From: Cyclina sinensis
Taxonomy: Eukaryota; Mollusca; Bivalvia; Venerida; Veneridae
Direction: 5' to 3'
Length of the DNA stretch: 64,000 bases
Assembly (NCBI GenBank): GCA_012932295.1
Contig: JAAONU010000018.1
Coordinates: 4,024,206 to 4,088,205 of the forward strand
Shown here one piece after another: positions 177 through 35,484 of the stretch. The stretch's first letter is position 1. Every line of letters starts with the position of its first letter. The position numbers were made by a program, and so were the translations under genes. Below the pieces are notes generated by a model. The model was not told where the DNA came from, did not search any database, and worked only from the letters and a program-made list of their open reading frames with translations.

Positions 177-3100
177 GACCTTCTGAGGACTCAGAGAATT
201 TCCAGCATGAACTACGAGGTGTTATACCAAGAAGTTTTGAATACTTGTACAATCTTATTGCAAGAGAAAAAGAACTGGTAAATTTTTCTCAGATTTATTA
301 CGACTTAATATTGTCTAAGTTAGTAAAACATGTTTTAGGATGTTTTTACATAGATCTTGCTAATGTTTCAAACATTTCTGTACCAGAAAACAAAATGTTG
401 ATATTGCTGTAAATTTGTTATTCAATAGGATAAGAAATAAGCAATTCCAGTCATATTCTTTTTGTTAAGAAGTAGTCATCGTAATTCATAACATCATACT
501 GTATACACGTATGCTACAAGCAATATTTACATTCGGATATTTCATGGTTTAAAATGATGAGAACATTTCAGCATGGTGACAACAAGCAGTTTCTGTGTAA
601 GTGCTCTTTCCTGGAAATCTACAATGAACAGATATTTGACCTGCTAGAACCATCTAATGTGCCTCTACAACTGAGGGAGAGTTTTAAGACAGGAGTGTAT
701 GTGTCAGGCCTCTCAGAAAGGGTGGTTGCTGATGCCAGTGAAGCTTACGAAGTAGGAAACTATGCACACTTTACTTTTTTGAAAGATTCCTCAGTGTTCT
801 CATATGCCTTTAAAGTTGGGAATGAAAAGCTGTGCAGGGGTTTCATTAAGAGGTGGGAGGTGGGGATTTCCTCCCGCTATTTTGAAGACCCCCCTCCTTT
901 ACTTTTCTTAAAATCATGTTTATTTTATAACAAACTGGCAGCAAATCCCACGCCTACTTTTTTGTACTCAAAAACTTAATGAAACCCCTGGCTGTGTGTT
1001 GCAGGCATTACAAATAACCTCTCAAAAATGTTCTCTGTTAAGTGTCATTTACAAATGTATCTCACAATGCTCCTCAAAACTTACTGTTTCAAGGACTGTT
1101 TCAGAGGTTAATATCCGAACATATCAATTTTTCATGCTGTCCTGTATCTTAACATCATCTTTATACATCCATATGTAAAGTCAGTTTTTATTGGTACCGA
1201 GTTCACAGGTAAACCAGTATATAGATTGTACTTTGATTGTTTTAACTGGTGGTTCAATATATCTACCGCAGGTGTTGAGTTCGAGCTGGATGAACCGTAA
1301 AGTGGCATCAACAGCCATGAACAGAGAGAGTTCACGCAGTCATGCCGTATTTTCACTTCAGATAGAGTCAAAGGTAAGGCAGCATTTTGTAGCTTTACTT
1401 TAAGAATTGGTTCATCACTACATTTGTTGTAATATGGAGTGTAAACATTATATGGTGTAATAATAATAGCCTTAAAATGATTCAAGGTTATGGGTATTAG
1501 CAAGGTTACCAACCTTACTGTTACCATGAGAATGTAGTGTATGTAAACAAAGCTAAAAAAACATCAAAGAATTTTATAAGGATAGTTAGCTGTCAAAATT
1601 CCATATGAGTTCACCTGTTATGCCTCAGTAACCTCCTTCACTGTCTGAATTCATAATATTTATTTATTAGACTGCTGTATACCTCATAACCTGTATTAAT
1701 TTACAGGAGTTGAAAGGTGGCCTTGATAATATCAAAACCTCATGCCTAAATCTGGTTGACTTAGCAGGCAGTGAAAGACAGAAGGATACAGGAGCAAGTG
1801 GCCTAAGACTGAAGGTAGGTTTAGATTTATTAGTAACACGTATGAGTATATTTTCCAGAAGCAAATCTAGGAATAGGATCACCATTTCTCTATAATTAGC
1901 AAGCACCTGTCTTTGTGGCCTTGTGTTTACCACATCTGTGAACCAATCAGGAGATTGCAGTTTGATATCCTGTACTGATATGACAAAATGTTGAGGGAGA
2001 TATTACAACTGGGACCTCTGAGCTCACTCATGTAACAAACAAAACAGATTTTGAATGTGTCAGTGTGCATTTCTTTTTCAGACACAGTATTCCTTTTCAA
2101 ACTATCTTATTCATATAATTCTTATGAAGTGATTGTTTTGGGTAGTTTTCTGCCAGAAACTGCATATTTAGCAGTTTTACTTTCCCAGGACATTCTCACA
2201 GTTTATGAGTCACAGGCTTCAGAGATAAACCTAACAGTAACATGAAAATGTGTAATTTCTTATACAAGTCATTTCATCAAGTATTGATCATTAGAATTGA
2301 TTTTATTTACCTTCTTTTTGATTTCAGGAGGCAGGCTCAATCAACAAGTCCTTGTCAAATTTGGGTAATGTAATCATGGCCTTGGTAAGTGTATCCAGGG
2401 ATGGGAAGACAAGATTCATACCCTACAGGGATTCCAAGCTGACCTTTTTATTGAGGGTATGTGCACACTGTATTTATAGTGTTTATGTTTGATTTCGTAT
2501 TGTTGAAGAAATATCTACTTTAAGAAGTTGTTAACATTTTCTTTGAAATACAGTCTTAAGGCAGCCTGCCAAGGTCTTTCATGATATGAAAAAATGAAAT
2601 GTACATTATGCTCTGTGAAATGTGTTTTTAAAATATTGCAGCATTCACTAGGAGGGAATTCCAAGACGAGTCTTATTGCATGTGTACATCCAGGGCACAA
2701 GTATGTACTGTTCTGTTTCAATTTTTTCTCTAATATAAAGATTTCATAGCCTTGTAATTCTAGTTGCAACCAAAAACCATATATCATATTTACCTTATTG
2801 AATTCACGTGCATCAGTTGATCTGACTGTTTGGCCTTTTGTAGACAAAATTTGTCCAGACTGTTTCTTAGCAACTATTATTCAGATTTTGATAATACTTG
2901 GCAAGAATCATAAGCTTAGTTGTGCATACCTTTGTCACTTTACCAGAACTTTCATTAAGGTGGGTATTTCTCCCTTCTAATTTGAGATCTTCACGCGCCT
3001 ACTTTTCTTAAAATCAGGCTTATTTTATAACAGACTGGCAGCAAATCACCCGCCTACTTTACCTGACTCCCTCCAACTCAAAAACTAAATGAAAACCCTG

Positions 3101-5388
3101 CTTTGCACTCCCGTGATTTTTCACTGAATAATGGCCGGTTGATTTTTTTTACTCATCAATTTGTTTGGACTGTTCCACATCAACTTTTATTCAGAATTTA
3201 ATAGTACTTTGAAAGAACCATAAGCTAATTAGATAAACTGACCAGCTGTCTGTTATATTATATATTACGAGCTGGAAATGTACTTAAAGCCCTAAGCAAA
3301 CATATTTGATTATCCATTTACCAAACAAATTCCAATGATTTATATCTCAGCTTGTTAACAAAGAACCAAATCACGGTTTGTTATATGTTTAAAAGGTTGC
3401 AAATGTATTCTGTTATGGTCTCGTGCTCCAAGTTTTCACTGCATTATTGTTTCAAACTGAATGCTTCTACCTTAAATTGATCAGATTACTGTATCAAGTC
3501 AGTATCAGAGGGGATTCATCATGCTTAGTGATAGTTCTGGTTCTCAGAGAAAAGATTCATAAATTTGCAGACTACATTGTGATAGGAATTTTTTTAATGA
3601 AATATCAGAATCTTAGATTTTAAGGTGACTTTTTTACTGTACAGAAAACATGATACTGTATCTGTAACTTTCATCTGAGTGTTTCAGATAATGTAACAGG
3701 ATGTCAGCATGAATAATTATGCCCCCATTTGAAGAACAGTAGGTATACTACTTTGCGCTTGTCCGTTGGTTGGTCGGTCAGTCGGCCCATCTGGCCATAG
3801 ACAAGACAACTCAAGTATCATTTGACCAACAGCTGTCAAACTTCATAGGATAGTTGCTCTTATTGAGTAGAAGACCCCTATCGTTTTTGAGGTTAGTAGG
3901 TGATAAGTCTAGGTCACTGTCACCTTGAATTGAAAGCCATGTCTGCTCATTAACTCGAGTACCATTTAGCCCACAGCCTTCAAACTTCATTGGGTGGTTG
4001 CTCTTAGAAGAAGACCCCCACTCTTCAAACTTCATAGGATGTTTGCCCTTATTGAGTAGAAGACCCATATTGTTTTGGGGTGAGTTGGTCAAAGGTCAAG
4101 GTCTTGATCATCTTCAGTCAGTAACTAGAGAATGCTTTGGCCTCAAGTCCTCAGATTTGTAGGGAGGTTGGTCATGACTGGTAGATGACCCCTATTGATT
4201 TTGAGGTCAGTAGGTCAGGGGTCAAGGCCACTGTGATCTTGACCAAGTAAAGCTTGCCCAACCAATTACTAGAGAACGCTTTGGCTTATGGTCCTCAGAT
4301 TTGGTAGGGAAGTTGGTCATGTCCTGTAAATGACCCCTATAGATTTTGAGATCACTAGGTCAAAGGTAAAGGTCACTGAGACCATGACCGCAAGAAGCTT
4401 GTCTGATCAATAACTCGAAAACACTTTGGCATACAGTCATCAGATTTGTTTGTGGTTTGGTCATGAGCAGTAGATGATCCCTCTTGATTTGGAGGTCAGT
4501 TGGTCCAAAGTTAATGTTACAGTGACTTTCACCACAAAAGCTGCTCTACATTCTTCAGATTTGGTAGTGTGATTGTTCTTGACCTGCAGATGGCCCATAT
4601 TGATTTGAGGTCAGTAGGTAAAGGTCAAGTATAGAAGTCCATGTAACATGACTAATTGGTTGCCATTGTTGGGGCATATATGTTTCACAAACATATCTTA
4701 CAGTTTCTAGTTTTGTATTGCATATTAATAGCTAGAGTTCCTTTAGGTGTCACACTGCCCCTTGACTTTGTTGAAAAGTTTGCCAGACTGATGTTACATG
4801 TTATAAGTTATTGAGTGTGTATTAATGATAATTCCTATGTTTCAGATGCTTTGGTGAGACACTTTCAACATTGTCGTTTGCTAAGAGGGCAAAGATGATA
4901 AAGAATAGGGTATGTAAAAAGTTTGACGGTAGCTTTTTGTTTTCTAGTAACCAACACTTTGATAGTAGATTTTGTAGCATTTATTTATTGCTACTCTTCT
5001 TCAGTTTGGCTTAGTCTAAGGCATGTAAAGCAACAAAGTATAAAAAACCATGGTAACAACTTAAGCCAGTTGGATTGAAAGCGTGTCTTACTGCATTATA
5101 GTGCTAATTCCATGTTGTTTTATGTGGTCCTGTGATGCAGACTTACATAATTTATAAAGTTTAAATACTAAGTTTAAGTTATATGAGTATGAAAAGGACG
5201 TCTTGTTGTCCAGCTAAATTGTTCTTCCTTCTCAGTACTCTGTGTAATTGGTGACAGTTTCATTAAATGTCTGTCCTAGGCGGTGCTGAATGAAAATGCA
5301 ACAGGGAATGTGAACCAACTGCTGGCAGTTATAAAGGTTTTGAGAGAAGAGATACAACAGTTGAAGATGGGAGTTGTGCCATCATCAG
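177..5388 (+). CDS. KIF15: KIF15 motor-domain exons 1-8 (C-terminal two thirds of motor and neck)
   Basis: The first visible exon opens at the GPSE segment that follows the P-loop exon in KIF15, then reads through [14 protein letters not shown]. Exon 2 carries [19 protein letters not shown]. Exon 3 holds the switch I motif ([12 protein letters not shown]), exon 4 switch II ([15 protein letters not shown]), exon 5 the [11 protein letters not shown] microtubule-binding stretch, exon 6 the GGNSKT and VHPG motifs, and exon 7 the [11 protein letters not shown] segment leading to the neck. No nucleotide-binding residue visible here is altered, so the motor looks functional. Exon 8 (5280-5388) begins the neck/coiled coil. 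Confidence 0.95.
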
Positions 5389-8300
5389 GTAATATCTTTA
5401 TTGTTGTTTCATCGGTAAGTAAAACTCACTCAGTTAAAGGCAGTAAGGAACTGCACTGAACAAAGATCTCGCAATGTATATTTCATATATGGACCAAAGG
5501 TTTAGGATAGTGATTTTAAAAACAGACATCCTGTTTGTTGTCACCATGCTGAAATGTTCTCATCAGGAATTGCAAAGAAAGATGCAAATCTTAATTAAGT
5601 TCATTAATTAATCTTGTTATATGCTGTACACTTTTGAGAATAGTGAGAGTAAAGTGTACTTGAGAATAGATGAGACAATGACTTAGAATGGAGTTTACTT
5701 TTGAGAATAATGTGAAAGCACAGTACGCTTTAAGAATAATGTGAAGTACTGTACACTTTAAGAATAATGTTAAAGTACAGTAAACTTCAAGAATAATGTG
5801 AAAGCACAATACACTTGAGAATAATGTGAGAGTACAGTACACTTTAAGAATACTGTGAGAGTACAGTACACTTGAGAATAATGTGACAGTACAGTACACT
5901 TGAGAACATTGTGACAGTACAGTACAGTTTAAGAATTATGTGACAGTACAGTACACTTGAGAAGAACGTGAGACTACTGTACACTTGAGAAGAATGGGAG
6001 AGTACAGTACATTTGAGAATTATGTGACAGTACAGTACACTTGAGAATAATGTGACAGGACAGTACACTTGAGTTACACTTGAGAATAATGTGAGAGTAC
6101 AGTACATTTGAGAATAACGTGACAGGACAGTACACTTGAGAAGAATGTGAGAGTACAGTACACTTGAGAAGAATGTGAGAGTACAATAATGTGACAGTAC
6201 AGTACACTTGAATAATGTGAGAGTACAGTACACTTGAAAATAATGTTAGAGTACATTATGCCTTCGAACAAGATTAGGGATACTATACTTTTACTGTTAG
6301 TTGCTATCTAGATTTTTTTGAATTCGGCCTGTAACCTACAAGCTTGCAAGAGAAAAAAAGCTAAGTACTGTGAAATCATTTAAATTCGCTGGGATGAAAT
6401 TTCGCGCAAACGGCCAAAAAAGTATGTTCGCGCGGTCCTAAATTCGCGCATTTTCAATTTCAGATTAAATTTTTTTTATCAGCATAAAAGCAGACGACAG
6501 CTGCATGACGCTGGATGTAAACGTGTCAATTACCGCGGTCCGCTTTCGAATATACAAACTGACAGGTCCAACTGTTAATTGACGTTAAATGACACAGATT
6601 AAGTGTACACAGATTAAAAGATCGATACCGACAGGTCTTTCGTAACCGGTCCCTAATCAATTACGCTAAAAAAAAAACATTGCCGCTTGCGAAAATTACC
6701 TTTACTCGTTCGTGTCCTATTTATGTGTTGTTACTTCTAGCTTTTATTCTTACATTCTCAAAGAATAAAATAAGTTTCAATAGCAAAAATAAGTTTGTTT
6801 CTCATTGAAAAGTTAAAGAATTTAACAAATTATCGAAATAGTGGAGACAACAATGTAATAATTATTAGTAAACGCTTCAGACAAGCGTTCAAGAATCTAA
6901 GGAAATACAAATGAAACATACTTAAAAAGAAAACATAATAAGTTTCATTTTAATTTTGCTAGATATTTAGAATTTGCTAAAACATCCGATTATTCAAGTT
7001 ATATTGGCTAAAAACAACAACTAATGGTCAAAAGTGAGTGGAAAAATATATGCAGGTATTTCGGATAGGATCAAGATTTGGATAACGTAAGTGTTTTATT
7101 AGTTTATTAAAAGCGCGGTCTTAAATTCGCGCATTGTTCCTAGCGCGAAATACGCGAAAATTCATCCTACGCGAACAAAAATGATTTCACAGTAGTTGTG
7201 GACAAAGAGTTACATATAAATTAAGTCTTTTCTTGTTGTCACAGAGATTTTATTCAAAATATTCTAGATACTAGTATTAAAACATTACCCAGCTCTTGAA
7301 TTTATACATCTCTTGATATGTAGGTATGATTCCTGCTGAAAACATGCCAGTTCTGAGAGAAATGTTCATCCAGGCTATGCTGCTTAGACAGAGAGCTGAA
7401 TCAGAAAAACAGGTGAGAATTATAAAACAGTTGGGAGTGGAAATGCTGTAACATTGGAGACAAGATTATATGAACATGAACAGAGGGCTTTTTACCTTTC
7501 TTTCTACAGAGGAAAAGCAGATAGATTACCGAGGTTGAAACAAAAACTGTATGGAAAATTTGTCAGTTGCAACTTTTTCTTCTATGAGAAACGTTATTGC
7601 AATCTGCTTAGCAACACCTCTGACAGATCTGTTAAACTGACTTGAGACCGGTCTCCATGATCAAGTAGTTAAAGTACTGATTTGACCTCTCATCTCATAG
7701 ATGGTTATTGGTTTGAGCCCAGCCACCAACCATTACCATTTATGTGAGAAAGTTAACAGTTGTTTACAGAAAATGGAAATTCAGTACTGCTGCTTCCCAG
7801 GAATGATCGCCAGGTTAACAGTTTGCTCTATATCACTCTGACTGTTGGAAGGTTTTACATTCAGTTACACCAATGTTCAGACATGACATTTTCTCAAGTT
7901 TTCATAATTTTGTCAGCTGTATGTCACCTTATTAAAAAAATATATAATTATTCAACATTTGAAATGATATGTCTAATTAATTTACTTGTAACAGGAATTG
8001 TTTGCTGCAATGGAAATGTTACAGGAAGTGTGTAACAAGAAGGACAAGGCTATACAGACCAACAAAATGATTATAAAGTTTAGGGACAACACTATCAAAC
8101 GACTGGAAGAAAAATTGAAAGGAATTGATGTACAAGTGTCACATCAGGTAGTGAAGAAAGGCAGTGTTTTAACACAGTTTTAGCTTTGTATATACAAGGC
8201 AAAGACAATTCACAGTGTTGTTATAATTATTTTACAGTAATTTACCTTGAATAGCCTGAATAGCTAAGTTTGAAAACTTCACTTCATGGAAAATTCCTTG

Positions 8301-11300
8301 ACTATATATTTCATCAACAATTTAAATGTGTGTTTCAGCTTCTTGCAAAGGAAACAGATTTTTGGTGGTTAAGTTACTAGATGTATTGAAAATCCTGTCA
8401 GAGTGGAAGTGGGAGTTTGAATGGTCATGTACATTGTTAAAACCTGATGGTTAAAGCACCACTATGAAAATATATAGAAGTAAAATCAGTTCTTTACTGT
8501 TAAGGTTGGAAATGCTTTTTTTCATAATCAGCCAATACCTCTGCTCATAAATCTTAAATGTAAACAGTTTTGGTTTTTTATGTTATGCACATATTGTTAA
8601 ATTCAGGAGGACTTGCTGAAGGAGATTGATGCATTAAGATCCCAAGTAGAACACCATCCTCTGGTAGCCAAACATGCTTTAGATGTACAGAGGCTGAAGG
8701 CAACAATCAAGTCATTGAGAGAAGACACAGGAATACTGTCTGGTGTGCGGAAAGATGCCGACAAGTTGAAGGCATTAGAAGAAGAGTTCAACAAACTAAT
8801 GGCAGAACAGAAGGGGGATAAAGATGGTAGGTTTATATGTAGTACATGTATCGATTGGAATCCGTTTACAAAAATTTGTTATTTAAAGAGGCATACCCGA
8901 AAATTTGGAGTATAACATTACATGAAACTGAAAGATGTGGAACAAGTCATGCCCCATGTCAAGATATCATTGAAAATTTTAAAGCACAAGAGGTATACTG
9001 AATCTATGAAAACTAGTATTTATGTAGAGATTTGTTATACATATTTTAGGTGGATAACCATTACTTGTATATGAACCCTTTCTCGGCTTCTATATGCCCT
9101 AAGAAGACATTTTTGAACATCTGTTCTTCTTCACTTTACCAATTATGTTTTCATTTTATAGAGGATGAACCAGTCAAATACATATACAGTACATGTGTAA
9201 CTTTTTGAGTGTGTCCTTTTAAGGTGGTCAATATGTGTAGGAGTTGCTCTTGAGTTAGTTAAAAGGTAGACTTATATCCGTGTGAAGTATACTTTGCTTT
9301 AGGCTGATTTTAAGGACATTTAAATGAATTTGTTTGTGCCTAGTCACAAGTCAGTGATTGTTTTGTTAATTGAGGGTATAAGATTTTATATTTATAAGCT
9401 CTTCTGTCTTCCAAAAGCTAATACTGATTCTACTTTTGGTTTTCAGAAACTAACATTACACCACAAAGGTCTGACAGTGTATCAACAGCAACTGTAGAGA
9501 AATTAAGGTCACAGATTGCAAACTTAGAGGGTCAGATTGAACAGGTACTGTGTTTCAGATGTTTTTTATTAATTATTATCTCTAATGTAGGCATGCAAAA
9601 GTGCTTCATATTCCTGCAGTATTTCTTTCAAGAAAACATACAGGTCAGCTCGAGTTCTTGAGCAGCAAACCATAAAACTACCTTTGTTGTCCATCAGGCA
9701 GTGTACTTCCATTAATCTGCTTTGTTGCAGTGTTTATTTTCTTGAGTTCATGTATATGTTAAATTAACAGATAAAGGTTATTTTTTTAACATTTTAGCAT
9801 TTCTGTAAGCTTTTCTGTTTTAGTCTTGGAATAACAATTTGGGTTTTGGCCTACACATTTTTGAAAGTTAAGGATTATAATCTTGTGTTGCATGTATATT
9901 ACTTATATGTAGATTTGTTATTTCTAGTTAACGTCAGAATTGTCAGAGAGTAGACAGAATGCCGAGAAGAATGAGCTATACAAGAATGCAGAAATAGAGT
10001 CATACAAGAAGACAGTGGAAGAACTGGAGAATGTGATAGCTGCCAACAAGATGAGGTCCAAACTGGAGAAAGCTGCTCTAAACGAACAACATCTACATAC
10101 TGTCATGGTAAATAGTCTACATACTGTCATGGTAAATAGTCTACATACTGTCATGGTAAATAGTCTACATACTGTCATGGTAAATAGTCTACATACTGTC
10201 ATGGTAAATAGTCTACATACTGTCATGGTAAATAGTCTAAGTACTGTCATGGTAAATAGTCTACATACTGTCATGGTAAATAGTCTACATACTGTCATGG
10301 TAAATAGTCTACATACTGTCATGGTAAATAGTCTACATACTGTCATGGTAAATAGTCTACATACTGTCATGGTAAATAGTCTAAGTACTGTCATGGTAAA
10401 TAGTCTACGTACTGTCATGGTAAATAGTCTAAGTACTGTCATGGTAAATAGTCTACATACTGTCATGGTAAATAGTCTGCATATTGTCATGGTAAATAGT
10501 CTACATACTGTCATGGTAAATAGTCTAAGTACTGTCATGGTAAATAGTCTACATACTGTCATGGTAAATAGTCTAAGTACTGTCATGGTAAATAGTCTAA
10601 GTACTGTCATGGTAAATAGTCTACATACTGTCATGGTAAATAGTCTACATACTGTCATGGTAAATAGTCTACATACTGTCATGGTAAATAGCCTACATAC
10701 TGTCATGGTAAATAGTCTTCAGATTACAGAACACTAACCCAAACTAGCTTCTGTGGTGGTGGTCAGGTAGACAAACAGAAAGAGAACTCATATTCCAGCT
10801 TCTCATTTGTACTACATGTTATGTCTGTTTTGCAGCAATTAGCCAAAGTTAGATGTGTAAGTACATAATTGAGCAAGAACTAATCAAATAGTATTTGTGC
10901 TTGTTGGGATATTAAGATCTAACACCTGAATTCCTGTATAAAATATGAATAAGAAAGGTATTAGTTCAACAAAATTTGATCTGTACATATGTGTTTCAGA
11001 CCATAACCACACCAAAGAAAGAATGCTACAAATTGAGAAATAGAACAGTTATAACAAAGTCAGGTACACCTGACCTTGACAGTACAATACCATTTGAATA
11101 TGAGAAGTCCCCTGAGGGTGAAGCCCTGCCTGAGGAAGAGGGTATACTGCAGGAAGACGTTCCCGAGAGCATGGCACAGCAAGCACATGAGGCCCTGCTG
11201 GATCAAATCAAACAACTGCAGGTAGTGCTTATATTAAAAATTAATATTAAAGATTGCTTAGAATTGTGAAAGTTCATATTTGCTTAATTAATTAAGAAGT

Positions 11301-14300
11301 TTGGTAACATTACAATCTGGAACTTATTGTGTCTAGCTTATAAGATTATTTCAAGGGAAATGCACTTGCAAATTGGACCCAAAACCTCTTGAAATGTGAA
11401 AAATTATTTGGAAACACTTGAGTATGTGCTGTTAAGAACTTGTGTAGTAGACTAGTGTGTATATAACATAGCAAACGTGGAATTTACAGGAGAAAAATGC
11501 TGATCTGGAAGCACGTTTGGCAGAGTACGAGACCGACAGAGTTAAACAGATTCATCATCAGTCTGTGTTAGAGTCACAGCTCAAGAGTGTAGAAGAGGTA
11601 CTGCCTGCTTTATGTAATAATTCCAATTTTTATGTTATATAAGAAATAACGGAATTATATCAGATATTTAGCCTTAACAGAAATAAGTTATCTTTATCAT
11701 GAATTCTTAAACTTTTGGCATTTCTTTCTTGATTGATTGGAATTGAAGAAAATGCACTTACCAACTCACCAATGCATCTGTACTTTCTGCCCTTCCCTCT
11801 TAAAATTTCAGTTGCTTGAGAAAGAGCGACAAGTTTTGAGCAGTTTAAGAGAACAACATGGCCAGGTGGAACCTCGACTGAAAGCTGCCATTGAGGAAAA
11901 AGAAAGTAAGAATATCAAAGTATTCATTTACTTACTGGTAGTCAGCTCTAAAGTTTGTATTGTGAAAATATAGATAAGTAAGTGTTTTGTCAGGTTTCTA
12001 TAAAACGTACCTGTACTTCAATATGACTTTGATGCCTCAGTGCAGAAAAGATGTAGCTGCTTCTTGAAAGTATTACAGTAACAACTTGTCTGCACTGGGT
12101 CATAAAATGTCACATAATAGCAAGCAAATGGACAGGAGCACTGCTTCAGTTCTTTGTCTTTCTGATGAGACGTTAAACTGAGGTCCCATATATCAATGCT
12201 GTACACTGAGCATGCAAAAGAACCAGGGGTGTCTCCGGAACGGGATGCTTTCTGTATCTTGCATTATCCCCCACAACATAAATACTAATCTCTTCAGGTG
12301 TGCGTCAACCGGTAGTGACGATAAATAAACTGAAATAGATAGGTAGACTTCCATGCTACAGAATTTACAGTGACATTAATCAGTCAACCATGAAGGAGAT
12401 AGTTTCAATTTATCCTTAGCTATTGCATTAAGTAAGGCAGTTGGACTAAGAATAAGGATTATAGACATATATGTATATTTTAGAAAACTAATTAATTATT
12501 ATTGTTGTATTGCAGATGCTGTAGGAGAGACAAGAGATTTACGATTGTTACTTTCCCAGGCTGACAGAGAGATAAAAGAATATAAAGATAAACTGAAAGC
12601 TTTGGAAATTGAGAAAAGTGAAACAGTTGAACTGGTTGAGTCTAAGGTTAGTGTTTGCTCTAGCTTGTTCTGAGCAATTAACAATATTACAATGTTTTAA
12701 ATATAAATGCCTCACTACAGAATGATTGTAAATGTTTCTTCGAAGAATCATACAAATTTTCTGCACTTCGGCATCAGTATAACAAACTGAATCCCTATTT
12801 TTGATACTTGTTTATCTGTTTGCAATTCCCTGGTATGATTTTCAACAAGATTTCTGTTTTTTTATTCACACATACTGGTAGCCATGTTATTTGTTTTCAC
12901 TTCCCAACATTTCTACATCAAACACCACTGTATTCTTCTGTCATTAGTTTCTTAGGGAAGATGCATCTTAAAATGTTCAGCATCTTCAGGAGTTTGTTGG
13001 ATAGCAGGGTAACACTCACCAAATCACTAATGGCAAGGAAACTTCAAGCTGGGCAAATTTATTCCAAGAGATCACCCAGCTGGAGAGATGGGTTTTTTTA
13101 GATACCTTTTAATTGCCCTGCTTATTTTAAAATTGCCTAAACTAAACAACAAACATTCCTACAGTAACATAATCAAATAATGCTATGATAAATAATTTTG
13201 CACCATCACCTTGAAAATGTTTGTGAAATAAAGCTGACAGAGGTCTAAATTTTCATATTCATCTGATACAATGAACAGTTAACACTTGTCATCAAGCTGA
13301 TCTACAGGTTAAATGCTCTTGTTAAAATGACATCTATTCAGATAAAGATTTTTTTTCTCAAGTTTTTTTTAGCAGTTGTGTTTCTTCAACATGCATTGTA
13401 AACAGGTACATAGGTCATAATGGATCCTGCTGCTTTAATACCCAGTAGTTCATTTTAACTTGATTCTCACCTGGAGTTTGCACCAAATAGAAGGCTTTTA
13501 TGAAGAAATCACAAAAGCAAAGTCAAGATATAGTTACAGGAAGAAGTACTCAATTATTACAGTGTTAATTATTTCAAACAGAACCATCAAACAACAGAAC
13601 TACATGTAGCTGTAAAGAAATTAATTAATGAATCAGGTGTGTTTGTATTCTTGAAATTTTGTTTGGCTTGTTTGATTTTTGCTGGGCTTGTTCAGTTCTC
13701 TAGTTCCCAGCCAAACTTGCTACTTTATAATTTTCTTTCCCTGGGTAATACTAAGGTCAGCCTCATTCTGTGTTGAATAATGGTATCAGATACAGGTCTG
13801 ATACCAAACTAATAACATGTAGAAAATTCAACTTTTTATTTCCAACTTGTACTCCCTGGAATTTTAACAGACTGAAATTAATGTATAAAAGTCTCATTTT
13901 ATAAACAGTTGTCTAAAGTAAAAGATTGGCGGTAAATCAGGTTTTTTGGTCTCTGACATTGGCAACCTTGTCATTGAGCTCAGGCAAAGCATTGAAACTA
14001 GCTGTGTGCAAACATTTGTTATTACAGATGGCAGGCCTAGCTTTGACACTGGAACAAGTTGCAAAAGAGCATGAAAAGTTGCTGGAGGAGAAAGATGTAT
14101 TAGAGGTAAGATATTTAAGTGTGTGACAGTGTTCTATGCCACAGTAAATTACACTGTAAAGGGCTCTGTTTGATTCATGTTACACTGACTGATAATGTAA
14201 CAACAATATGGCATTTATCCTCACTATAATGTAAAGGTTGACTAATACTATCTCAGTTTTACAAATGGCTTCATTCAGACAGGTTAACAGTGTTATACCT

Positions 14301-17300
14301 GCATAATATTAAATACCTAAAAAAATACTTAAGCAGCGTAAAACTTGGAAAGAGTTAATCCTGTTTTGAATAAATTAACTTGAAGTGCAGGAACTTTTGA
14401 GTCTGATTACTGTATGTTTATATTCCTAAAAGCTTCTGTCTGTAACAGAAACAGGAAATGCATAAAAAAGTAATGTTCCCTATTCATTCAGATCCACACC
14501 TAGTTGGTCATAAAGAAGTTTGTTAAATTTACACTCTAGAATACTGAGCCTAGGGAATCAGTTCCCTTACACAGGTGTCAAAGGTTGAATTTATATGAGT
14601 CAAGGAAAGAGATCACTGAACCGTAACAGTATGAATGATGTTCCACTAGAAGATGTTGTCCAAAAAATACCCCATTGTCTTTCAAATAGAAAACGAAGTG
14701 TATTGCAGTAAATCAAATTGTGACTAAGGTGTTGTGATATGTACATGAATTACATTATGTGATAGCCATATTACTACACATGTAAGTTACATTGGAGTTA
14801 ACTGGCTTTAAAAGAAGGACTCCACACAACACTAGTGCGTAATTTTAGTAATTTTAAAAATGATCATGACATGAATATTTTAAGTTAAGATGTTGCACAA
14901 AGTTGTTTCTCCATTTATCTGCCAGTGATACAGGTTTGTTACATACAAATGTACAGACTGTGGAAAGTTTTTTTATTAAGACTATTCACAATTATAATTA
15001 ATCATGTATTTTAGCTTTCTCTGGAAACAGAAGTGGCTACACGACAGTTCCAGGAAAATCAGGCTCAGAAATTTGAAGAGAAAGTCCTGGAACAACAAGA
15101 GACAATTAAGAAATTAGAACAAGATTTGCTGGTAGGATATTTGATATGGAATACAAACTTGTTCAAGAGCTTCTAATTTCAGGCGCCTTTGAAATCTGAC
15201 ACTTCCTACATGTCGTGGCAAAAAATCTTTCCTGTATAGCCTGTCATCGTCAAACAGGAAGACCTTTCAGCTGTACATCATATTATTATATTAATATTTG
15301 TTAAAAGATCATTAACTTTTTCTGAAACAATTTCATGAAATGGTGTTTGTAGTAGAAAGGAGATTTTCTGACCGTTTGTAACAGAAAAATGATGGAAGCA
15401 TGTATTTGCACTGAAGCTGGTCCAATCAGAACAGCATGTTAAGATGGGTGTAGAAGAAATACTTCTTGACAGTTTTATTTTTGTTTTCAGAATGCTGAGA
15501 AGACTATTTTAGATGAGAAGGAACACAGGGAGTGTTTGGTAGAGCAACTGAACTGTGAAAGTACAGAAAAAGTAAGATTTCTTTTTTATCTTTTTAGCTC
15601 ATCTGTGCACTTTAGTTCTCATCTGTTGTCTGTCTACATTAACTTTGTGAACACTCAAGAGGTTTCATTTCCCATCCTTGTTATGGTGACACTTTGTCAG
15701 AATGTTAAGCTTAATGACTTCTAGGCATTTTCGTATATAGGTCATGTTGGGTAAAAAACTAGGTCACCAGGACAAATCCTAGAAAAACCTTGTGAACACT
15801 CTAGAGGCCACATCTTCCATCAAAACATCATGAAATTTTTTTTGAATGTTTGGCTTGATGACTTTAAGTTCTTTTTTATATGGGTCTTGTTGGGTCAAAA
15901 ACTAGGTCACAAGGTAAAATCCAAGAAAAACCGTTTTAACACTCTTTCCATCCAATCATCTGAAACCTTGTCAAAGTTTTTCTTGATGATTGGGTAATGT
16001 TGGGTCAAACACTAGGCCATCAGGTATAATTCTAGAAATACTATCTTAACTATCTTGAGGCCACATTTTCTAACCAATCGTTATGAAACATTGATGATCA
16101 GTTGAGTGACATAGGGCCTCTTTGGCCGTCTTGTTTTGTACATTAGTTTATTATACACTCATAAATGAAATATTGATGAAATAAAATGCTTATTTTCATT
16201 TTCCTTATTTTCACTGTAAAAATTTATTTTTCACTGCAGTGAAACATATTTTCCATATTTTCACTTGTGTCTTGCCGAACTACTTTCTTCTAAATTCAGC
16301 CAATACACAAAATTAAAGGGGAATTCTTTCAAATCGTAAGGTCAAAAAAGAGAGAAAGTATATAATAAACAGAAAATTCAAGTTTTTTCTATAACTTATT
16401 TTCATCTTCTGGTATGAAAATTATCATATTTCACTCGTGCCTATCACCACTCGTGAAATATTTATTTACATACCACTCAATGAAAATAAATCCCATATTT
16501 ATAGAAAAAACTTGAATATCCTCTATATAGTTGATACTGATAGAGTTAAGTGAAGAATGAGATTTTTTTTTATTTAAACAGACTTATATCAGCTCTTTTC
16601 AATGAAGACTATAAATCACTGTCCAGACTACCACCCCCTCCCCAGGTGGCTTGATTACCAGTGCCCATTCACATCTGAGTGAAATGAAGCATGTATGGTT
16701 TAGGTATCTGCCCAAAGACACACCTCATGCCCTCGCTAGTCCCTGTAACTACTAGGCTGTCATGACATTTGTGTTCTTATAGGCTTTCAGACTTTCACTT
16801 TTGACCTTTTCTGACACTGATTTCGACAGTTTCTTGTTTTTTTTAAGCTAACCCCTTTCTAATTTTCAAGGTACTTGTTAGCTCACTGTATTCCTACAAG
16901 TAAAATACTTATATGAAAATTCATCTTAATTTTGTGAACTAGGTGAAAAAATCAATTTTATTATAATAACTGATAATATTTAGGACAAGGAGATTTTGAA
17001 GCAGTTCGAAGAGACACAGAATTTGATGGCTGAGTACAATTTGCTTAAAAATATGTTGGATGCTCATGAAGATTCAGCCAACACCCTAAGGAAGGTGATT
17101 GAAGAGAAGGAAGCTAAAGTCTTGTACCTGGAGAAGTCCTTGAAAGGAACAGAAGTAAGTAGCAAATAAACAAGGTAAAGGTGCCTGAAAGTTTTACAGA
17201 ATCTCAGTCTGTACTTTTTATTGTGTATTCATTAACCCTTAACCTGCTGGAACCAAAAGTGATTAGCCTTTGCAACCAGTATAGAGGCAGGCCAGCCTGC

Positions 17301-20300
17301 ACATCCGTGGAGTCTGACCAGGCTCTATAATGTTGGTAGCTCCATTTTTGTATTTTGATATTGAAATCCCTTAAACTTTGAATGAACTGTTCCAAATTCA
17401 AAGCTGGGCAAATCCATTACAAAATTTCAGCATGTTCAGGGTTAAGTTGTACCATTATCTGCTGAACATTAAATGACTGAGAAATTTTGCTGTCATGGGG
17501 GTTTTAAGACTTTTCACTGGCGTCTTATTAGAACATTAGGATTTTTTACAAATGAAAATATTGTTTGGAAGTATCTACACTGTCAACCTTGTTTGATTGA
17601 TGTGAAAAAAAAGAGTAAAATTGCATTTTGATATAAGTGGTCACTGAAAGAAGTTTTATCTATTCAGTGGCTTCACTTGATAATCATTCCAAACAAAATC
17701 AAGGATTTTTCACAAAATGCCAACTCTGTATTGTAATTCAGGAGAAAGTTGTACAATATTACAACAAGATGGAGGAACAAAGTGAGATCATTACAGAACT
17801 CAAACTGAAGTTAGACACAGCCACAGAACATATCACCTTCTACAAAGAGAAAGAGGAGACTTTAGGAAAATCTGTGGAAGAATTGAATTCAAACTTAGCA
17901 AGCAAAGTTGAGGAATTGGAGACAATTAAAAGCAAGCATGCTGTTGAAGTAAGATCAGAAATATACCTTAGCTAGATATTTGTTATTTAGCATCATCTAA
18001 TAGACCTTTACTAAGGTTGTTCAAATTATGCCACATGGGTCACTTGTTTATACATTGTTTTGGATAGGAAAAACTTTAAAAATCTTGTCTGAAACCATAA
18101 GCCCTAGAGCCAAGATATTTGGTTTGTAGAATTGTATAGTGCATGTATGAAGTTGACCCTGACTTAGGGTCCTATTAATGTAAAATATAAAATCATGTAA
18201 TTGCTTGTAATTGTGTACTCTAGAGCTTTGATAATTGTAATGTAACATTTTTTTTCTGGACTTCTACCAGGATTGTTAAAATATGCTCTGGAATCAGAAT
18301 TGACTCTAGCACAACTTGCTTGTAACAAAGATATATAGAAGAAACACTTAAATTACCATCTTTAAAACTGCAGGGCCTGGAGTCTGTTGTAGCATTGTTT
18401 AATATCTACCAAGATTGTTCAAATGATGTACCATAGACTTAAATAAGAAAAAAAATATAACTTTCTTGTCAGAAAATACATGGCCTAAAGCTTAAATATG
18501 TAATTTGTTTCTTTATTCAGGCATATTGTAAAATAAATGTAGATGTAGGACCAGGATTTGTATTGCTTACCTGAATTTCAAATAGGTGTTGGTCAGGTCT
18601 CCTGAACCAGTCTCTGAGATTAATAAAATGTAACTTGAAATAACTTGATTTCTCAGCAGGTCAGTTAAGGCATTTTTATGTGTGTTTCTTCAGCTTGATA
18701 TGTTAAATGAAGATGTGAAATCATATCAAGAAAGCCTAGAAGAGTTAAATCAGGAGATTACTAGTGGACAGGAGCAGTTACAGAAGAGTGAAGAACGTTG
18801 TCAGACACTCTCTAAAGAAGTCAGTACTCTTAAAGCCACAGTGAGTATTTAGTTAATTCTTGTATAAGCAAAATTATGCCAGACACAGACTTTTAAGTCA
18901 TTCATTTGTTTTTAGTTCTAAGTTAAATAGAGAAGGTGTATTTCTTTTGAAATATTCATAGGAAAATGTTTAAAGTAAATTTTAGGTAAAAAGTGACACT
19001 TTCAATAAATTATTTAAAAGTATTTGTAAAAAAAATTTCCTTTAAAGATTTTCTTTTTAAGCTCCCGCCATTCAAAGAATGGTGAAAGAGCATTATGTGT
19101 TGCTCCTGTCCATCTAACCACATTTTATTTCCGTGCATTTAAAAGAAAACGCTTGTGCATATTTCAATCAAGTTTTGAATTTATATGTGTCTTATAAAAC
19201 TACAGGTTCCTTTCGAAATCGGGCATGACACCTCCAGTTTTGTCTAAGTTATGGCCCTTTTTTGACTCCACATTTTTTTCCGCACATTTAAAGGAAACTC
19301 ACACACCGATTTCATTCATATTTTGCATGTTTATGTGTCTCATGAATTTACAGGTTGCATTCAAAATTTGGTATGTCCCCTCTTGGCTCTTCTTTGACTT
19401 GTTTCAGTTAAAATGAAGTTTTCACACATTTTAAGGAAACTGCTTTAACAGATTTTATTAATATTTTGCATGTGTAAGTATCTTAAGAAACTACAGGTTC
19501 TTTTCAAAATTGGGCATGATACCTCCAATGTTATTAGAATTATTAGCCGTTTTTGACTTATTTTCTGATAAAAGCCATATTTCTTCCATGTTTTGCAGTA
19601 ATTTGTTCATTAATTACCTACAACAGTTACACTGCTTTCTACATTCCCCCTGCCTCTTCTTACAGTTTCCTTATGATCTTCTGGTGACATTTGATCATGG
19701 CGGAGGCATTTTTGACCCATGGATAGATATCTAGTCTTTACAATGTACAGTTGTTTTAATGTACATATTTGTTGCTGTAATGTTTAAGAAGGCTACTTGA
19801 ACAACATAATTGTGAAATAAGAATTGTTTTCTTCACAGTTGAAGGAGAAGGAAGAAGCGATACATGACCAAAGCAGCATAGAACTCGCTGCATTGACTGA
19901 GACACTGAAAGATCTTGAGAGGTCAAGGTCAGAAAGAATAAAGGAAAACACACAACTCAAGGTAAGTAAGTTATGTGTGATTTCAGTGTAGTTTTATTTA
20001 CTCTGAATGTACTGTACAGAAATGATACTTACTAGAAGGTAAACAATCGGCTTATTTAAATGAAGTTTATTACTAGTTAAAGGAAACTCGGAAAACAAAA
20101 ACCAACTTTGTTTAAAGATGAGCAGGTCAAGATTGATTGTTAGAATTCTTAACAAACTTTCGTTTGTTCTCAGTTTCATTTCTAAATTAATTGTTGACAG
20201 TTGCATTGTATGCTTTTGTGAAATGTAAAATGCTATGGCAAGGTGAAGGTTCAGCTTTGAGGAAGTAGAAAGGAAGCGTTGAAGTACATTAGTTTTGTGG

Positions 20301-23300
20301 TTGTTAATTGTAAAAAAAAACTAAAAAAAACAAATGAGTTGTTTCTCTGAAGTCATTACAATAATATTTAAATATTTAAAACATGACATGGATGTTTCTG
20401 TTTGTACATATAGAGTAGAATAGAAGATGTGCAGGAGAAATATCAGAATACAATGATGGAACTGGATTCTCTGCAATCTGAGTTCAAGTTTGCTACTGAA
20501 AAGTAAGTACTTGTTGTGTGTGTGTGATGAAACTGAAATCTGAGTACCAGTTTGCTACTGAAAAGTAAGTACTTGTTGTGTGTGTGATGGAACTGAAATC
20601 TGAGTGCCAGTTTGCTACTGAAAAGTAAGTACTTTTTGTGTGTGTGATGAAACTGGAATCTCTGAGAACTGAGTACCAGTTTAATACTGAAACTTCTGAA
20701 AGTAAGTTCTTGTTGAATGTAATGAAACTAGAATCTCTGAGATCAGAATACCAGTTTGCTACATAAAAGAAGTACTTGTGTATGTGATGGAACCGGGATC
20801 TCCGAGATCTGAGTACCAGTTTGCTACTGAACAAAGTCTAGTGGACCTCTGCCAAGTTTGTTCAAAACATGGGCCCTGGGTCAAAAAAGGCACCACCCCA
20901 GGGGTCACATGTTTTACATAGAGTTATTTAGGAAAAAAATAAAAAATCTTCTTGTCAGAAACCGCAGGGCCTAGAGCTTAGATATTTTGTATGTAGCATT
21001 GTCAAGAAGACCTCTACCAAGTTTGTTCAAATCATGACCCTGGGGTCAAAATGGCCCCACCCTGAGTGGTCATTTGATTTTACATTAAGACTTACATAGG
21101 GAAAACTTTAAAAATCTGCTGCTCTGAAATACCAAGAGCTAGACCTTCAATTGTTTGTTGTTATGTCTCACCCCATACCCCCGCCCTTCTGATGGAGACC
21201 TATTGCTGCTGCCCTGTTCATGGGTGTCTGTCTGTCTGTCACACTTCATTTCCGTTCAATAACTTGAGTACCAGTTGATCAAGAGCCTTCAGACTTCACA
21301 GGGTTATTGCCCTTATTGAGTAGGGAAAAAAAAAACCTTTTGTTTTTTGGGTCAGTAGATCAAAGGTCAAGGTCAGGGGGACGTCTAGAGTGAAAACAGT
21401 TTCCACTCAATATCAGGAGTACCATTTCATCCAGAGCCTTCAAACTTCATAGGATGATTGCTTTTACTAAAAAGAAGAACCATATTTTTGGGGTTAGTAG
21501 GTCAGAGGTCAAGGTCACAGGGACCTGTAAAGAGAAAAGTATTTCTGCTGAGTAACTGTAGTAGCATTACACCCAGAGCCTTCAAACTTTATAGGGTAAT
21601 TGTATTAGAAGAACCCTATTGTTTTTAGGGTCCATAGTTCCAAAGGTGAAGTTCACACGCACTTCTAGAGCCAAAACTGTTTCTGCTTAGTAACTGGAGT
21701 ACCATTTTACCCAGAGCTTTCAAACTTCATAGGATGATTGCCCTTACTCAGTAAAAAAACCCTATTGTTTTGGGGTCAGTAGGTCAAAAGTCAAGGTCAC
21801 AGGGGCCTGTAGAGTGAAAATTATTTCTGCTCAGTTACTGAAGTACCATTACATCCAGAACCTTCAAACTTCATAGGGCAATTATATTAGAAGAACCCTA
21901 TTGTTTTTGGGGTCTGTAGGTCAGAGGTCAAGTTCACAGGGACCTGTAGTGTGAAATTATTTCTGCTCTAAAATTTGAGTAACATTACACCCAGAGTCTT
22001 CAAACTTATTGCAAACTTATTCAAACTTGTGAACAACAAACACCAATAACAACCAATTACCATACTTGTAACATGAGCAATGAGACTCAGATGAACGATT
22101 TAGGGCCATCATGACCCTCTTGTTTATCAAAGTCAGTGGTCTTGTTTCTGTGTGTCTGAAGCTGTATTCAAAAGTCAAAAAACCTTTTATTCTCTCATGC
22201 CAATTATGACAAAATGAGAATCTTCACAAATGATGTTATCGAGGCTTACAAACTAATATATGAACATTTACAGAAACTTTCATGAGATTGTTAGATATAC
22301 ACACATATATATATATATACGGAGAGTCGAATACTAATAGCAGGTAATAGACAAACACAATATAGATATAAGCGCAATATTTCACATCTTGGTTACATAA
22401 TTTAGTTTTAAATCTTAACATTGAGCAAAATGTTATTAAGAAACTGGCATTTTCAGTATAAAGTGAAATAGATTTAAAAGCGATAATTCATGATGATTTT
22501 TACAAACTTGCACAGTTTGTTGTATTCCTTTTGGTTATTTGTGTTAAATAATTGGTCAAATTTGAAAATATTTGGTCTTCTATAGTAATAAGGCTTAAGG
22601 TACATTTTTCTATCTTGTTCGAAAAGTCGACATTGGAATAAATAATGGAATTCGTCTCCTAATTGACCTTCACATATTGTACAAAAACGTTGGTTTACTG
22701 GTACTCTTGCCCAACTGCCAGTTTCTACTGGAAATCTATGATTTCGCGTTCGAAATTTCAACATATGATAAATGTATTGTTTTGGTGTATTAGTTAAATA
22801 TCGTTCAATTTGGAAGTTATGCTTAAAGATTCTGTATGTTTGACCTTTACTTGATGTTTCTACATTGGAAAACCATTCATTTATAAATAAATCCTTCAAT
22901 TTTTGTTTGACTGTTAGTTTTAACCACTTTGGATTCGGAAATATGTGCGTTTCCCATATGTTAATCAGACCAGTTTTCAGCAATATATTTTTGATACAAT
23001 AAACCCACGGAAATCGTCTCTGAATTAAATTGTCATGGAGATTACGTGTAATTACCCGAAGATGTTGATAAATAATGCAAGATAATTTACACTGTGTTAA
23101 GTCATTTGTGGTACAAATACTTGACCAAAAGTTAACTATGCGTTCCTCAATATCAACCCATAACGGGTGATAACCAGATTCGCCGTATACCATATAATTT
23201 GGTGTAGAATTTTTCATTTTTAAAACGTGTTTCAAAAATCGTAGTTGGACTCTTTCTAGTAATTGTATGTTGCCAAATCCCCAAACTTCCACTCCAAATA

Positions 23301-26300
23301 AAAGAATTGGTTTAATAGTTTTATTAAATAAGTCTATCTGAAGGTCGATTGGGAGATCTAATCTATTTGCGTTTTTAATTAAGCTAAACATTGCTCTAGT
23401 TGCCTGTGAAGCGAAATGTTTCTTAGTTTTCAGAAAGGAACCGTTTCTTGAGAAAAGGACCCCTAAATATTTAAATTCTTCAACAATTTCAATATGTTGA
23501 TTATTTAAAGTGAACGACGCATTTGGTTGTCTTCTCTTCGAGAATATAACCACTTTTGTTTTAGATAGATTAATTGTTAATTTCCAAATTTCACAATAGT
23601 TTTGGTATTTATCTAAAGCATTTTGGAAGTCTGTTTCATTTTCTGCTAATATAACCGTGTCATCGGCATACAGTAATATATAAATCTTAAGAAAAACATG
23701 AATTTCATTGGGTACGGGTTCATCAGTTACGGTAATGCCGTTCACGTTTAAACTGTCAGTAAAATATTGATGTAAATCGTTCAAAAATATAGAAAAAAGA
23801 AGAGGCGAAAGATTTTCGCCTTGTCTCACTCCGATATTACTCGGGAAAAAATTTGAGCAAGTCGAGTTAAGTCTAACACACGATTTAATATTTTGGTACA
23901 TATTTTTTATTAATGTTAAACATTTTCCATTAATATTAGTATTAAAAAGTTTTTCCCACAATCCCTCGTGCCACACAGTATCAAAAGCTTGTTTAAGGTC
24001 AACAAACCCACAGATGAGTGTTTTCTTAGAATTATGCAAAATATTTATAATGCTATTCAATACAAAAATATGGTCTGCGGTTGACTGATTTTTTCTAAAT
24101 CCGGCTTGGCATCTGTTAAGTAAATTATTGTTTTCAACATAACTGGTAATACGATTGTTAATGACAGATGTAAACAGCTTCCCCAGGCAGCTAAGTAAGG
24201 TTATAGGACGATAGTTTTCTGGATTGGTGGCATCTCCTTTCTTTTTATAAATTGGATGTATAATACCTATAGTCCAAGCTTCAGGTACAATTCCGCTATC
24301 AAAAATTACATTAAACAATTTGACATAAACATGTTTTAGTAAAGTGAAAGTTGATTTAATATGTTCGTTTAATATTTTGTCGTATCCGCAGGCTTTATTA
24401 TTCTTAAGGTTCTTGACGGCAAACTCTATTTCTGCCTCCGTTATAGTACCATTTATTTCATTGTTAATAATTTCTTCATTTATTAAGTCATTGTTTTGAT
24501 TAATTTGTGCATTATTAATATTTTCTTGGTAATTAGTATTTTTAAAAAAAATATGTAATTCATTAAGATTTGCCGCAGATTCGGTTGGTCTTTTACCATA
24601 TAGTATTTTCCAATATTTTTTTGGATCACTTTTTCGAAGTTTACGCAGTTTATTGATGTTATTGTTTTTATATTCGTTATGATACTTTTTCATAGTGTTT
24701 TTATATGCTCTGTATGTATTCTTTTAATTAATTTTATTCACGTCATTTCTAAAGATTTTGTATAGATATTTCGCCCTGTGAAAATTTCTCCTAGCTTTTT
24801 CACACTTAAACCCGAACCAACTAGAAGTTTTAACCTCGTTAGAAAAAGAGCTATAACCTATATTTTGTTCAAATGTTTGTTTCGCTGATATCAGAAAAGT
24901 ATCGGCAATGTCTCCGACTATTTGATTTAGAGACGTTTGATTAATTTCTTGTGAAATCTCGATATTACACAAATCAGTATAAATCTGGTCAATTCTATTT
25001 GAATCAATACTATCGACAAACGCATTTTGTTTAGTTTTATCCCATAATTTTTCGTGAGTTTGAGGATATTGCTTTGCTTCGCTGACATTTGGATGTAAAA
25101 AAGTTAGCGACAAACATAGAGCACTGTGAACATCAGAATACAAAGAACAAAAATCAACTATTTCAAAACAATTAATGTAGTCGAACAAATATGATGAACA
25201 TGTAAAATAATCCACACAACTGGCACCTCTACATGTTGGTTTACCAGAGTAGTCACCCTTAGTTCTACCGTTTAAAATATACAAAAAGTTCATTTGTAAA
25301 AAGTCAATAAATCTATACCCATAGTTATTAACTGAAATATCAGTGTTACACCTATTTCGTGAGACGTTTTTACAGTTGTCAAAATGCAACATGATTAAAA
25401 AAAAAAAAATAGAATGAAACATACATAGAAAATTATCATAGCTCTATAATAAGCATGCAAAAAGATAAGTGAATGATGAGTTTATATTTTTTCAGAGTAG
25501 AGAGTCAGAAAGAACACATATCCCAGCTGTTAACAAAATGCTCTGTGGCTGAAACAAGGGCTTCGACTGTGGCAAGTGACAGAAATCAAGCGCAGTCTAG
25601 GTTTGTCTTGCCATTTCCTGTGCTTATATTCTTGGTGATTAGCTGTAATTAAACAAAGAAATTTATATAAAAAGATTAAAATTAAGATAAATCCTTCATG
25701 ATTTGTGTTGTTTTAAAAAAATGTAGTTTTAAGGCTTGTTATTTTATCCTGGTTTGAAATTAAATTAACAGCACTTAGATAAACTCACACAGTGAATTCA
25801 AGCTTTGCAATTTTTAAAAGTTGAATAAATATGGATATTACATTGAAATGTATGGTTTTACAGACTTAAGGAACTTGAAACACTGCTGTCAGAATCTACA
25901 GCAAATGTTGATGAGCTGAAAAGAGAAAATGAGAGTCTTAGGGAAATGGAAAAAAGGTACTGGTATAAGTATGGAATGGGGGGAAAAATGTATTTTAAGT
26001 ATTTAAGATTTTTAAAAAAAAGGGTAAAATTAGGTATAGGTGATAAGATAATTCTAGGAAAATTTGGAGAAAAAAAATATGATTATATAAGGAAAATGGA
26101 GAAAAAAATCTATTTGAGAAAACCCGGGAAATCGTTAAATGGGAATGAAACCCCAGATACAACTTAAAAAATATGAAGCAATATGGAACAATGGAAATGG
26201 ATAAAGTTAGTTAGATTTTCATAGTTGTATAAAGTTTGATTTAAATTGTTCACACAGTTCTGTTTATACTCAAAAGAATTTTCATACTGCTGTTGTAAAG

Positions 26301-34697: not shown

Positions 34698-35312
34698 ATA
34701 GTTAGACTTAATGCCCATTAAGAACACTTCAATACATTGGTTGTTTCTATCAAGACTTAATGCCCATTAAGAACACTTCAATGCATTGGTTTTTACTAAG
34801 ACTTATGCCGAATAAGAACACTTAATATATAGGTTGTTTCTGTGAAGACTTATGCCCAATTAGAACACTTCAATACACTGGTTGTTTCTATTTAGAGTTA
34901 ATGCCCATTAAGAACACTTCAATACATTGGTTTTTATTAAGACTTATGCCAAACAAGAACACTTAATATATAGGTTGTTTCTATGAAGACTTATGCCCAA
35001 TAAGAACACTTCAGTACACTGGCTGTTTCTGTCAAGACTTATGTCCAATACGAACACTTAATACATTGGTTGTTTCTATCAAGACTTACGCCCATTAAGA
35101 ACACTTCAATACTTTGACTGTTTCTATCAAGACTAATGCCCATTAAGAACACTTCAATACAAATGTTGTTTCTGTCAAGACTTAAGCCCAAAAAGAACAC
35201 TTGATACCTAGGTTATTTTTGTCCACAATTATACCCATTAAGTACATTTCAATACATTGGTTGTTTCTATCAAGACTTATGCCCAATAAGAACACTTAAT
35301 ACATTGGTTGTT
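34698..35312. repeat. 48-bp satellite-like array, 13 copies
   Basis: Thirteen units averaging 48 bp, each with gactta.gcccattaagaac, acttcaatacattgg and ttgtttctatcaa blocks. Alternate units carry the variant acttaatatataggtt, which hints at a higher-order two-unit repeat in the left half. Confidence 0.85.
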
Positions 35313-35484
35313 TCTGTAAAAGACAAAACACAGCTTCTATTTCTGGTCCACCATCAGTTGGCCACCAGCCAATCAGCTGTGCTATGTAATCATGTAAATA
35401 AAGGCAGTTCACACACAATCAAGAGCTTCCTATCTAGTTTCGTAAAATATAATATTATACACTGTGCTGTTATTAACAGAATGA

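Follow-up and report, generated by a model that had tools for sequence, protein, structure and literature searches.

The window analysed here, a stretch of 64,000 nucleotides from the bivalve Cyclina sinensis, carries on its plus strand a gene model (177..30011) of 31 visible exons, placed by eye, that together encode 1240 amino acids, the 5' end of the gene lying outside the window. By its motor domain matches this gene is KIF15 (kinesin-12), as the preliminary description had proposed: residues 1-364 of the model matched 156 PDB sequences, of which the top four all come from KIF15 (350.3-359.8 bits), whereas the best kinesin of another type in PDB reaches 223.6 bits with the same residues, and the Pfam Kinesin family spans the motor (7.3e-80). 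Four more Pfam matches of the model, to coiled-coil families, all stay below their own cut-offs, and in the stalk and near the C-terminus there are matches, in the same order, to a provisional human KIF15 sequence. Since the first visible exon begins inside the motor, the 5' end must lie ahead of the window, and exons are numbered here in relation to those visible; the exon that was earlier called exon 13 is the 13th visible one.

The end of this exon lies in a 24-bp minisatellite of 26 copies at 10093..10716 on the plus strand (TRF period 24, 26.1 copies, 96% matches, 0% indels). The consensus unit, CTACATACTGTCATGGTAAATAGT, consists of 15 nt of exon end and 9 nt of intron start, and the donor ATG|GTAAAT is kept in all 26 units, from the most upstream GTAAAT at 10108..10113, which we take as the probable main donor, to the 26th and last at 10708..10713. 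The spacing of the units is 24 nt in each of the 25 intervals, without indels. The motif ATGGTAAAT is present in every copy and absent elsewhere on the plus strand of the window, and a search on both strands with the 24-mer, allowing up to three mismatches, returned 26 matches, all inside the array, while the same search in 100 dinucleotide shuffles returned none; a 22-mer of the unit had no match in IMG/VR. Seventeen units are identical to the consensus and the remaining nine represent four variant types, with variation confined to positions 3, 4, 5, 8 and 24 of the unit, which probably stems from few events; the variant CTAAGT is found in units 7, 13, 15, 19, 21 and 22.

Read in the frame of the exon, the consensus unit encodes LHTVMVNS. 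Whichever array donor is joined to the exon at 11000, the frame is preserved and the product gains 0-25 times 8 residues; when the exons of 9447-11221 are joined and translated with anything from 0 to 25 extra units, none of the 26 cases contains a stop (this test took in the 21-nt candidate microexon described below, which leaves the frame unchanged). Intron retention past the array meets its first in-frame stop, TAA, at 10735..10737. The array of 26 in-frame donors, the non-optimal A at +5, found in all copies, and the stop beyond the array had all been claimed before on inspection of the letters, and each of these claims is borne out.

The exon in question (9928..10107, plus strand, acceptor tttctag|TTAACG) comprises 180 nt in phase 0-0 and ends at the first array donor, where the alignment score with human KIF15 peaks. 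The following exon on the same strand, placed by the model and the alignment at 11000..11221 behind the acceptor tttcag|ACCATAACC, has 222 nt in phase 0-0 and codes for the ITTP region. The human KIF15 reference used for aligning the exon end is a provisional sequence, which makes the result a lead rather than a proof. When donor 1 is joined to the exon at 11000, 93 residues of the window align with 92 residues of this human reference with one single-residue gap; this gap falls beyond the exon junction, which itself is gap-free, and LN, H, T and ITTP around the junction are identical to the reference. Against the same provisional reference the score is 133 with donor 1, 119 with donor 2, 111 with donor 3 and 103-105 with the others, and when the exon end is slid from -12 to +12 codons, the maximum is found at 0, with 126 at both -1 and +1. 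To judge from the maximal score at the first donor, the exon probably ended ancestrally at the first copy, and the array grew from there into the intron. The earlier statement that the first donor gives the spacing of vertebrate KIF15 is thus in agreement with the score maximum at 10107, as judged by the provisional human sequence and provided that 10107 is joined to 11000 without the microexon. This candidate, 21 nt at 10836..10856 on the plus strand, is in frame and well formed, with good-looking splice sites, and is probably not constitutive: its inclusion adds seven residues that the provisional human protein lacks and lowers the score against that protein from 133 to 116. The microexon may have no use at all, be spliced in alternatively or be specific to the lineage.

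A second array that spans a donor is found further downstream in the same gene. A later KIF15 exon on the plus strand (20414..20502) ends inside a tandem repeat at 20471..20827, reported by TRF as period 60 with 3.1 copies and period 65 with 2.0 copies, which when cut by hand gives about six units, the later ones decayed. GTAAGT occurs at 20503, 20565, 20625 and 20702; among the hand-cut units copy 4 is altered and copies 5 and 6 are without a donor site. The first donor, AAA|GTAAGT, is strong (seventh of 30 by matrix), and when it is skipped an in-frame stop, TAA, follows immediately at 20504, so that use of the downstream donors would be predicted to truncate KIF15. That the gene carries this array in spite of the stop argues indirectly that splicing settles on the first donor. 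The array also illustrates that arrays over donors exist without frame-neutrality, and the frame-neutrality of the 24-bp array may therefore be luck, one unit length in three being a multiple of three. The intron that also holds the second array contains on its minus strand an open reading frame of 749 amino acids for a reverse transcriptase (22474-25443; RVT_1, 1.9e-41), with upstream of it an open reading frame of 239 amino acids that has no Pfam match at E 0.01; together they represent a probable retroelement within the KIF15 intron.

Structures of this kind are known, and the human examples in CBS, F7 and ABCA7 came first. The CBS VNTR is located at exon 13-intron 13 (PMC1395315) and is described as a 31-bp repeat, c.1444_1467+7(16_21), whose copies may carry substitutions (PMC2630376). 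Like the KIF15 array, it joins an exon end (24 nt) to an intron start (7 nt) and repeats the donor, in 16-21 copies (PMC2630376), but 31 bp is not a multiple of three, whereas the 26 copies in KIF15 have 24 nt (15 + 9) and are in frame. In intron 7 of F7, repeats of 37 bp, again not a multiple of three, duplicate the donor, and it is reported that only the most upstream one is normally used (PMC6627357), which for KIF15 we can only infer; when the first F7 copy carries a +5G>A change, the exon is skipped and cryptic donors further downstream come into use (PMC6627357, citing Borensztajn 2006). The 25-bp VNTR in intron 18 of ABCA7 has 23.7 copies in the reference, the first of which opens with the GT of the exon 18 donor (PMC5954066). 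Retention of one unit amounts to 2 +/- 1%, independent of VNTR length, and the resulting form is a target of nonsense-mediated decay (NMD) that is increased by cycloheximide (PMC5954066), so that the 2% may understate donor use; skipping of the next exon, exon 19, grows with VNTR length (PMC5954066). The total length of this array is similar to that in KIF15 (592 bp, PMC5954066, versus 624), but it is intronic from the GT on and a retained unit shifts the frame, instead of adding eight residues.

Two further comparisons are less close. In human UBC, tandem units in frame with splice sites give a ladder of isoforms, and site choice alters repeat number without a frameshift (PMC10809524); the UBC sites act both as donor and as acceptor, however, and the units are ubiquitin monomers, whereas the KIF15 sites are donors only and the repeat forms no protein domain. 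The dual-specific AGGT motif of the UBC kind is absent from CTACATACTGTCATGGTAAATAGT, from its variants and across the unit joins. Minisatellites at boundaries in human segmental duplications are often in frame and change an exon or an intron, and of the intron modifications in coding sequence nine are in frame and one is out of frame (PMC2812944, Table 2); these differ in belonging to recent primate paralogues, with units of 30 bp on average in four copies and up to 39 copies in the morpheus genes (PMC2812944). The KIF15 array belongs with CBS, F7 and ABCA7, since each of its 26 units repeats the authentic 5' splice site, and the first copy sits where the authentic exon ends, to judge from the score maximum at 10107 against provisional human KIF15. 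What is distinctive is the frame-neutral, stop-free unit of 24 bp and the presence of a second array over a donor in the same gene. Judged by titles and the beginnings of abstracts, none of the papers listed in searches on donor VNTRs and on bivalves describes a comparable in-frame donor array, though its absence is thereby unproven.

The explanation that we consider likely is that of a duplication array of which the first donor, at 10108, is mainly used and joined to the exon at 11000, the other 25 copies being tolerated in the intron and leakage to them being cheap. A tandem duplication across the 3' end of the KIF15 exon (15 nt) and the 5' end of the intron (9 nt) would have been followed by growth to 26 copies through slippage or unequal exchange, the first copy remaining as the ancestral exon end, a position that is supported by the comparison with the provisional human sequence. 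Splicing would then proceed mainly from 10108 to 11000, leaving 25 copies in the intron, and we propose that these are tolerated because the most upstream of identical donors wins. As the unit has 24 nt and no stops, a slip to a later donor would add eight residues per copy without breaking the frame, which would make leakage cheap, and the added residues would fall at the end of a coiled-coil segment. First-donor use, minor leakage and neutrality are what we infer from this; by analogy with the human arrays, dominance of the donor at 10108 is to be expected, together with low levels of forms with 8 or 16 extra residues and perhaps in-frame skipping of a neighbouring exon. Exclusive use of the most upstream donor in F7 and the 2 +/- 1% retention in ABCA7 (PMC6627357, PMC5954066) speak in favour of this, although both are human cases and the rule may not transfer.

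The strength of the donor also bears on the matter. Scored with a human-type matrix of approximate frequencies, the array donor takes 18th place among the model's 30 donors; by U1 duplex energy it is 24th, its -5.3 kcal/mol being equal to that of CTG|GTAAAT, with which the first visible exon ends. Outside the array the gene strand has 1851 GT sites, counting real donors, and 62 of them have a matrix score at least as high. The array donor is weak but ordinary for the KIF15 gene. A weak donor is a point against strict first-donor use: the A at +5, the same base that in the F7 mutant goes with use of downstream donors, weakens every copy alike, and later copies could draw more leakage than those of F7. 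By the same token the first donor has no advantage of strength and position alone would decide, which makes the array a cleaner test than the F7 mutant, yet with a less certain outcome.

The most serious alternative is that the identical weak donors compete, so that each allele produces a ladder of KIF15 forms with n x 8 added residues while array length differs between individuals. A coiled coil of variable length through donor competition, as put forward in the preliminary description, is possible, and over the exons examined all 26 products are in frame and free of stops, the donors are identical and weak, human UBC offers a precedent for a ladder from an in-frame splice-site array (PMC10809524), and in-frame leaked products should escape NMD, unlike those of ABCA7. 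On balance we regard it as unlikely, and less likely than dominance of the first donor. The F7 and ABCA7 observations cited above (PMC6627357, PMC5954066) argue against it, as do the stops that use of downstream donors would meet in the second array of the same gene and the occurrence of only five unit types in the 24-bp array. Nor do the open copies help the case: none of the 72 single changes to the consensus unit gives a stop, and the probability that eight random sense codons are equally far from one is 0.061, so that 26 open copies say little about selection. The open frame as a sign of selection was dropped for this reason, and because variation is limited to the five positions. A fuller version, in which splicing makes a protein VNTR, with a measurable ladder of stalk lengths in each animal, arrays of different length between animals, and splicing noise that samples a repeat grown in the intron, is in our opinion improbable.

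It is much less probable that the last, intron-proximal donors are used, with many U1 particles bound and the site nearest to the 3' splice site winning, which would give a mature exon of about 780 nt and up to 200 extra residues. Several U1 can bind early complexes, and which of them is committed to splicing depends on where it lies with respect to U2 (PMC8283771); this could favour later donors over the first. Folding of 9901-10840 is predicted to leave the last donor (accessibility 0.31), like the first (0.32), slightly more accessible than the others (0.24-0.30). Against this stand the drop in score from 133 to 105 with provisional human KIF15, the displacement of the heptad by one residue with every unit (8 = 7+1), and the main use of the first donor that PMC6627357 and PMC5954066 describe for F7 and ABCA7.

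An effect on neighbouring exons, long alleles raising in-frame skipping of the 222-nt exon at 11000 or of the 180-nt array exon, has very little in its favour as the main consequence of the array. Skipping of ABCA7 exon 19 does rise with VNTR length (PMC5954066), and both KIF15 exons are frame-symmetric, but such symmetry is shared by 19 of the 29 internal exons of the model, and 624 bp falls within the range of the small ABCA7 alleles named there, 315-837 bp (PMC5954066). Least probable of all is an artefact of assembly with a wrong copy number or fabricated copies, since, error-prone as tandem arrays are, the five unit types are mixed in irregular order as in real minisatellites.

How far the position of the array calls for a special cause can be judged from the gene as a whole. 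Six arrays, merged by hand from TRF output, occupy 2566 of the 29835 bases of the KIF15 gene (8.6%) and cover two of the 30 donors and none of the 30 acceptors of the model. This is no excess at donors, as random placement, in a null that ignores the resistance of exons to insertion, puts 2.4 of the six arrays over a donor; with minisatellites making up 8.6% of the gene, arrays on boundaries need no special cause. A mild tendency of arrays to start shortly before an exon end counts, however, among the points against our preferred explanation of first-donor use with tolerated copies: two of the six arrays start at most 40 nt upstream of a donor, slightly more than expected from random placement (P 0.024, with a post hoc cut-off chosen after viewing the data).

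Compared with 20 dinucleotide shuffles, the RNA of 10060-10760 has a better predicted fold (z -3.45), in which copy pairs with copy. A special hairpin was nevertheless dropped as a candidate: when 60 arrays were assembled from shuffled units, 14 folded no worse than 26 consensus copies, which makes the folding of the array an ordinary by-product of tandem repetition, and the folding predictions were given no weight. With increasing copy number the predicted accessibility of the first donor lay between 0.41 and 0.57 and showed no clear trend. At the protein level, the exon read through the array (269 aa) is predicted from the single sequence as one long helix (five models, mean pLDDT 80.2 to 40.9, pTM 0.29), to which no weight was given. 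Read through, 9928-10734 also matches the Pfam family of the T4 gp5 C-terminal trimerisation domain below threshold (28.4 bits against a cut-off of 30.9); no single stretch passes alone, and the match probably reflects the 8-residue period. An antisense open frame of 264 amino acids (9924-10718, minus strand) over the exon and the array is probably a by-product of the repeat.

The interest of the locus lies in the choice of splice sites. The KIF15 array is a natural contest of 26 identical donors in one transcript, and since no outcome within it breaks the frame or should trigger NMD, donor choice can be read directly. Site choice is thereby separable from RNA decay, which is a confounder in human arrays with out-of-frame units, and the second array, with its strong donors and immediate stop, provides a contrast within the same gene. 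Exclusive use of the first donor would extend the oriented 5' to 3' choice of donors to another gene, and to donors of equal strength; use of others as well would show a protein repeat made by splicing.

The whole window was without Rfam or tRNA matches, and 30000-64000 without an open reading frame of at least 130 amino acids. Longer tandem arrays, with periods of about 48 to 322 bp, lie 3' of KIF15 at 34704-35317, 41994-42971, 47208-48717 and 55967-56728.
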